DNA of 64,000 nucleotides, taken from the NCBI RefSeq assembly GCF_000378605.1, contig NZ_KB905156.1, positions 477,209-541,208 of the forward strand. The letters are read 5' to 3'. The position numbers and the translations under genes are program-made. The first letter of the stretch is position 1. Each line of letters begins with the position of its first letter. Below, piece by piece: positions 15,215 to 15,564 of this stretch. The notes under the pieces are model-generated. The model was not told the origin of the DNA and did no database searches. It was given only the letters and a program-made list of their open reading frames with translations. This stretch comes from Thioalkalivibrio sp. ALJ21. Lineage in GTDB: Bacteria; Pseudomonadota; Gammaproteobacteria; Ectothiorhodospirales; Ectothiorhodospiraceae.

Positions 15215-15564
15215 GAGCTGGGGGTGCCCGTACCACATATCGGGCTGAGAGAGTCCCCTAGGGAAACACGGACCAATGTACACACTCGCGTTGGTGGCCC
15301 AGGTTTTCCGAGACAAGGCGCGTCGGGCAGCGGGTAGTGGTTCTACCCGCAAGCGACGCAACGCAGGATCGGGGAACCTGGGGTACCAACCCCAAGGGGC
15401 TCGGCCGCTTTTGCGCGCGCACGGCGTTGCGGCTCCCTTGTGCAGAATGACTGCACGGCAGTCGCCGCGCCTTGTTCGCACGCAAAAGCGACTCGAGCGC
15501 GAGCGTGTACATTGGTCCGTGTTTCCCCGCACCTGAACCGGTTAACACCGGCGGAGGGAAGCTC
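15215..15564 (+). ncRNA. TPP riboswitch of thiC, split by a 267-bp repeat
   Basis: All parts of a TPP riboswitch are present in order. P1 is GAGCT (15215-15219) with AGCTC (15560-15564). P2 is GGGG (15220-15224 region) with CCCC (15255-15258). P3 is GCCCG with CGGGC (15226-15245), followed by the pyrimidine-sensing CTGAGA (15245-15250). The second half is ACCTGA-ACCGG-TTAACA-CCGG-CGGAGGGAAGCTC (15531-15564). Between P2 and ACCTGA, where other TPP riboswitches have about 5 nt, lies repeat copy A (15261-15527). Without it the linker would read TACGC. Confidence 0.88.
15261..15527. repeat. Structured inverted-repeat element, copy A (inside the riboswitch)
   Basis: 267 bp bounded by 30-bp inverted arms (15261-15290 and 15498-15527) with one mismatch. 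A nested hairpin pairs 15291-15305 with 15375-15389 (13 of 15). Inside it is a tight stem GCGGGTAG-TGGTT-CTACCCGC, and the right half has GTGCAG-AATGA-CTGCAC. The body is almost identical to copy B at 61660-61971, but the outer arms differ at 11 of 30 positions, always on both arms together. Reading frames inside it look accidental. No transposase is encoded, so it is a non-autonomous or otherwise structured element. Confidence 0.85.

Follow-up and report, generated by a model that had tools for sequence, protein, structure and literature searches.

We found that the TPP riboswitch in the 5′ leader of thiC, the only one found in the genome of Thioalkalivibrio sp. ALJ21, is interrupted in its P2-P4 linker by a non-autonomous element (MITE) of the IS5 family. 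At a rough probability of 0.6, we favor the explanation that this riboswitch is still working, with the transposon-derived sequence as a fourth arm of its junction. The arrangement itself is real and unusual, and the key functional claim, namely control by TPP, is directly testable.

The interrupted thiC aptamer and the origin of its insert

In the window (the whole analyzed stretch of 64,000 nucleotides), thiC lies on the + strand at 15654-17543 and codes for a protein of the ThiC radical SAM family (Pfam PF01964, 618 bits), with a divergent PhoU-like gene (PF01865) preceding its 5′ leader. Its best match, with 94% identity, is from Thioalkalivibrio sp. AKL19, this being the best among 80 loci kept from named genomes, a set from which the records closest to the window were possibly left out. 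All parts of the split aptamer are on the + strand. The 5′ half (15215-15260) consists of the 5′ strands of P1 (15215-15219) and P2 (15220-15224), P3 (15226-15230/15241-15245), the CTGAGA motif (15245-15250) and the 3′ strand of P2 (15255-15259), and its core is identical in sister genomes with an uninterrupted (hereafter empty) leader. The MITE copy (15261-15527) follows, and then the 3′ half (15528-15564), which begins with the linker bases CGC and displays the ACCTGA motif (15531-15536), P4 (15532-15534/15555-15557), P5 (15538-15542/15547-15551) and the 3′ strand of P1 (15560-15564). When 15100-15700 is searched with cmscan, the RF00059 model returns just two partial matches, of 24.0 bits to the 5′ half and 29.5 bits to the 3′ half, both below the gathering cut-off of 54.3 bits. 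These matches, together with the predicted fold and the comparison with empty sisters, bear out the original prediction of two TPP riboswitch halves separated by 267 bp; the predicted pairing of the insert arms (15261-15290/15498-15527) also holds, as these inverted ends of 30 nt are 97% complementary and 207 nt apart. A second intact TPP riboswitch in the thiC leader had been named as one finding that would speak against the prediction, and an RF00059 search of the whole genome gave no match, so no second one was found.

The genus search covered 30 genomes, our own included, in 20 of which the thiC leader is readable. Leaders of orthologous thiC genes had been proposed as a check, and they proved informative: 17 of the 20 are empty, with the sequence CCCC-TTGA-ACC (TCGA in G009), and three (G000, G020 and G004) are filled at the same site, in the same orientation and with the same junction. 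Among the remaining 10 genomes, 8 were included in the thiC search, with no thiC in five and a partial thiC in three. The uninterrupted aptamers of the nearest empty leaders (G040 and G041) reach 72.9 bits with the RF00059 model, and the linker is all that distinguishes them from the filled aptamer of G020; the filled leaders of G004 and G020 are likewise below the cut-off, at 29.5 bits. In each filled leader, all 16 tested pairs (from P1, P2, P4 and P5) are Watson-Crick, and both the CTGAGA and ACCTGA motifs are present. The junction common to the three, CCCCTA[insert]CGCACC, argues for one insertion, and the structure shared by three assemblies makes an assembly error unlikely. In a tree of the 1 kb upstream, the three filled genomes cluster with the empty G040 and G041 as a group of five with strong support (100/99); the three do not group together either in this tree or in that of thiC. 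A single origin, with the filled genomes as a clade, is not rejected by either region (p-AU 0.143 on thiC and 0.134 on the 1 kb upstream). The P3 tip of G004 is the same as that of G042, and gene exchange between species is plausible from such sequence comparisons and could keep the aptamer halves alike. Neither the sharing of the insertion by three species nor the derivation of the insert from an IS5 element had been recognized in the original prediction.

This derivation is evident from the inverted ends (GGAAACACTGAT...), which are common to the MITE and a 1.2-kb element of sister genomes. The latter, seen in G022, G012 and G040, is the apparent parent of the MITE and codes for an IS5-family transposase (NF033581, 319 bits against a cut-off of 140; PF01609 and PF05598), which at 323 aa is too long to be encoded by a 267-bp insert. 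There are at least 41 copies of the MITE in the genome, namely 40 that were scored (the thiC insert included; from 83 candidates), with 76-100% identity, and one more within the window. With up to three mismatches, the end pattern occurs at 42 places in the forward and 41 in the reverse direction, as against 0 and 0 for a reversed-pattern control. Identical 4-bp flanks are seen in 15 of the 41 copies, compared to 14.6% between copies, with CTAG and TTAA being typical; duplication of YTAR is known for IS5, per an excerpt of PMC10359306. The parent element was located at nine loci. Both flanks are available for eight, and their 4-bp sequences agree at five (L265, L266, L269, L276 and L279) but not at L270, L275 and L277. 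In the thiC copy, the left flank CTAG (15258-15261) and the right flank CCGC (15527-15530) are alike at 1/4 bases, and since they differ to this degree, the target duplication appears to be decayed; the junction bases of the filled leaders are also not the ones that an exact insertion would leave, which is a point against the favored explanation. Counting the outermost base pair to the 4-bp target duplication makes the insert 265 bp long. The net gain relative to empty sisters is 268 nt (TA + 267 + CGC in place of TTGA), in agreement with 265 bp of element and 4 bp of duplication from which one base was lost. The original prediction had taken TACGC for the normal linker, which exceeds the TTGA of the sisters by one base. 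Two other readings of the insert were abandoned. A TA duplication of the mariner/IS630 type, suggested by TA flanks, gave way to the 4-bp model of IS5, under which the outermost base pair is explained as well, and a self-splicing intron was rejected, there being no Rfam intron match and the ends being those of a mobile element.

Conservation and predicted folding of the filled leaders

The aptamer core shows no variable site among the three filled species (0/73, i.e., 36 + 37 sites with the P3 tip left out), and the P3 tip itself varies at 6/10 sites. Variability is higher in the insert (16/267 sites; one-sided Fisher p 0.019 against the core), in the flank just upstream (10/104; p 0.004) and in the neighboring reading frame (24/292; p 0.004), with the difference from the platform (4/88; p 0.086) not being significant; these tests use three filled genomes, and their p values are modest and take sites as independent. 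Three empty genomes likewise show no variation in the core (0/72). At four-fold sites of thiC, the filled species are 13-16% apart; G003, for which the start had been misplaced, is left out of the four-fold figures. The thiC copy of the MITE in G000 differs from that of G020 at 8/267 positions and from that of G004 at 14/267, and the difference among the filled species is 3-5%. Other MITE copies shared by G000 with G020 or G004 differ by 1.9-8.6% (10 pairs among 36 fetched stretches, two of the pairs being G020 contig ends that match one copy). The divergence of the thiC copy lies within this range and is therefore ordinary, making the copy neither unusually young nor unusually constrained.

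Folded alone, the insert reaches −185.1 kcal/mol (z −15.2), with 0/200 shuffles being as stable. In the minimum-energy fold of 15213-15567, it is a separate closed arm, and P1 (GAGCT/AGCTC), P2 (GGGGG/CCCCT, with one G-U), P3, P4 and P5 are all formed. Over the aptamer stretch, P1, P2, P4 and P5 have mean probabilities in the filled leaders that are close to those in most empty ones, at 0.96, 0.54, 0.84 and 1.0 in all three as against 0.98, 0.36, 0.86 and 1.0 in the empty G040; P2 is moderate in both kinds of leader, at 0.54 compared to 0.01-0.37 in 15 empty leaders, among which G001, G009 and G011 fold worse than the rest. When the whole leader is folded unconstrained, P1 is almost absent (0.0-0.01) in 18 of 18 leaders, filled and empty alike, as a switch without its ligand should behave. 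The aptamer helices can be forced at an energy cost of 6.2-9.0 kcal/mol in the three filled leaders versus 4.3-10.6 kcal/mol in 11 empty ones.

In the predicted ligand-free fold, a switch pairing spans 15550-15629 on the + strand, joining GGCGGAGGGAAGC (15550-15562) to GCGCTCCCTTCGCC (15616-15629), and is excluded once P1 and P4 form; with the leader taken to 20 bases into thiC, it is predicted alike in the filled G000 and the empty G040. Under the favored explanation, the MITE would fold on itself once transcribed, owing to its paired ends, and would therefore constitute an independent fourth helix at the aptamer junction, leaving just a few nucleotides between the aptamer halves. TPP would then bind as usual, with formation of P1 and P4, and the strand that otherwise pairs with 15616-15629 would be held, leading to a fall in thiC translation. 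Control of thiC would be retained in this manner, with the MITE arm being structurally transparent. By inspection, there is also a possible sequestering pair within 15574-15646 on the + strand, between TCTGCTG (15574-15580) and CAGCAGA (15638-15644), the latter overlapping the Shine-Dalgarno-like AGAGG (15642-15646); this pair is absent from the predicted bound fold. With the aptamer forced, the unpaired probability of the Shine-Dalgarno-like site goes from 0.42 to 0.20, 0.25 to 0.22 and 0.25 to 0.20 in the filled leaders, i.e., with little fall in two of the three, and from 0.61 to 0.23 in the empty G040, with no fall in several empty leaders. For the start codon, this probability rises instead of falling in all three filled leaders as well as in G040 (e.g., 0.29 to 0.53 in G000). 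Given a Shine-Dalgarno effect that is small in two of the filled leaders and absent from some empty ones, and a start codon that opens, the energy model by itself does not tell in which direction thiC would be controlled. A simple scan of 15060-15700 gave no intrinsic terminator.

Alternative explanations and known systems

The original prediction had set a tolerated extra arm against a loss of thiamin control, and the evidence leans to the former, short of proof, on the strength of the core conservation, the helix probabilities, the downstream pairing of G000 and G040 and the lack of a second switch in the search. A broken switch, with thiC free of thiamin control and the halves intact through short time or exchange with intact relatives, is a tentative alternative that we regard as unlikely, though far from negligible: the filled species are just three, with an element only a few percent different among them, exchange is plausible given the splitting of the three in the thiC tree and the P3 tip that G004 has in common with G042, and the predicted changes in accessibility are either slight or go the wrong way. 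It is countered by a core that stayed invariant while neighboring sequence and the four-fold sites of thiC diverged, by platform pairing that is kept in G000 as in G040, and by helix probabilities that are not lowered by the insert. Prediction of an aptamer does not by itself demonstrate control, as predicted TPP aptamers in diatoms gave no response, according to the available portion of PMC9544697.

Correia (NEMIS) elements differ in sequence from the thiC MITE and belong to another host, Neisseria. They are nevertheless comparable as MITEs with inverted ends, at which RNase III cuts the transcripts bearing them, as described in excerpts of PMC10969869. A long near-perfect stem is likewise predicted in the thiC mRNA, and RNase III is encoded in the genome. 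Cutting of the 30-bp stem could leave a split switch held by P1 and a stump of the element, or could remove the 5′ half, with the thiC mRNA starting inside the element. We deem such processing improbable as the explanation. The conservation of the 5′ half (0/36 core sites variable) speaks against loss of that half but has no force against a split switch, which is a live alternative because RNase III is encoded and cuts Correia stems in the same excerpts (PMC10969869). Rather unlikely, too, is a natural four-way-junction TPP riboswitch in which the MITE has turned into a working structural arm, with RNase III perhaps cleaving it so that a switch of two pieces (split) still senses TPP in the cell. 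Correia and other MITEs can also carry promoters, as the same portion of PMC10969869 reports, and an element-borne thiC promoter would bypass the 5′ half; this is very improbable, given the conserved core of that half and the 0 sigma-70-like sites in 15060-15700, as found by a simple consensus scan that missed the native thiC promoter too.

In its P1, P2, P3, CTGAGA, ACCTGA, P4 and P5 elements and its position 5′ of thiC, the interrupted aptamer resembles the TPP riboswitch (THI element, RF00059), of which the empty sisters are full members; unlike these, it has 268 extra nt, predicted to form an independent arm at the P2-P4 junction, and a score below the Rfam cut-off. The insert shares its inverted ends with the 1.2-kb IS5 element, and its family appears to have YTAR-type 4-bp flanks, but unlike IS5-family insertion sequences it is too short for a transposase, and the genome has no DUF772 match. 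The closest precedent that we found, by analogy, is pneumococcal: 5′ of the trp genes, a BOX element lies between two T-box riboswitches in a leader that is apparently still functional per the authors (excerpts of PMC3049150). There too, a dispersed repeat is co-transcribed in a riboswitch leader, but it separates two riboswitches (PMC3049150, same excerpts), whereas the thiC MITE is inside the junction of one aptamer. No Correia case inside a riboswitch was met in the available part of PMC10969869, and among the open-licence literature matches listed (titles and abstract openings) there was no report of a MITE or IS inside a riboswitch aptamer. The attachment of a TPP aptamer to a large RNA has an engineered precedent: when fused through a rigid helix to a group II intron, the aptamer still bound TPP, as reported in part of PMC11751092. 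If the thiC switch works, a compact ligand-binding RNA junction would have taken up a self-folding insertion of 268 nt in nature, which would be relevant to the acquisition of additional domains by riboswitches and to the ways in which an RNA can take a MITE insertion without harm; model-based annotation would then miss working riboswitches so interrupted, such as those of G004 and G020 at 29.5 bits.

The MITE family beyond the thiC leader

Among 40 genomes searched for the MITE, 14 gave a match, namely our own, 12 of the 24 further genomes of the genus and, weakly, one from outside it. There was no match in plasmid or phage records, and one exact end pattern was absent from viral contigs. A DUF772 search of the genome gave no match, and the family may thus no longer be mobile there. 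When the 39 other scored copies and their flanks were searched for known RNAs by cmscan, one tRNA beside one copy was over the cut-off and two matches were below it. A regular-expression screen for interrupted aptamers in 80 thiC loci gave normal spacing in 23 and no call in 57, and it proved too crude to draw on. RNA-level selection on the MITE was considered and rejected: there are compensatory changes in 31/87 predicted pairs but no consistent RNA-strand bias. In columns whose commonest pair is Watson-Crick, the G-U and A-C cells stand at 6 vs 21 in the outer stem, 40 vs 17 in arm A and 38 vs 36 in arm B; over all columns, the counts are 137 vs 18 in arm A and 116 vs 68 in arm B. The ends match better within than between the 40 copies (22.85 vs 18.49 of 24). 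As a DNA-level origin, for instance through arm-to-arm correction, is equally good for the outer stem, we make no claim that the MITE contains a functional RNA.

Near thiC, a lone degenerate MITE end lies at 17575-17597, about 30 bp past the stop codon, with two mismatches to the subfamily pattern, and no partner for it is seen in 17500-17720. A second copy in the window, of 312 bp (61660-61971), has CTAG on both sides and lies directly 3′ of an apparent intrinsic terminator (GCCCCGCCTCGGCGGGGCTTT). With respect to neighboring genes, the copies are in tandem as 14 sense versus 5 antisense, with 6 being divergent and 6 convergent (31 with both neighbors among the 40 loci, using a crude gene caller and counting related copies apart); no conclusion is drawn from these counts. 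In an alignment of the 41 copies, changes at one inverted end are accompanied by changes at the other end of that copy, most strongly around positions 13-15, and the internal hairpin tips are there or missing in steps of about 15 nt, even between orthologous copies (e.g., 282 vs 268). These two patterns suggest arm-to-arm correction or exchange between MITE copies.
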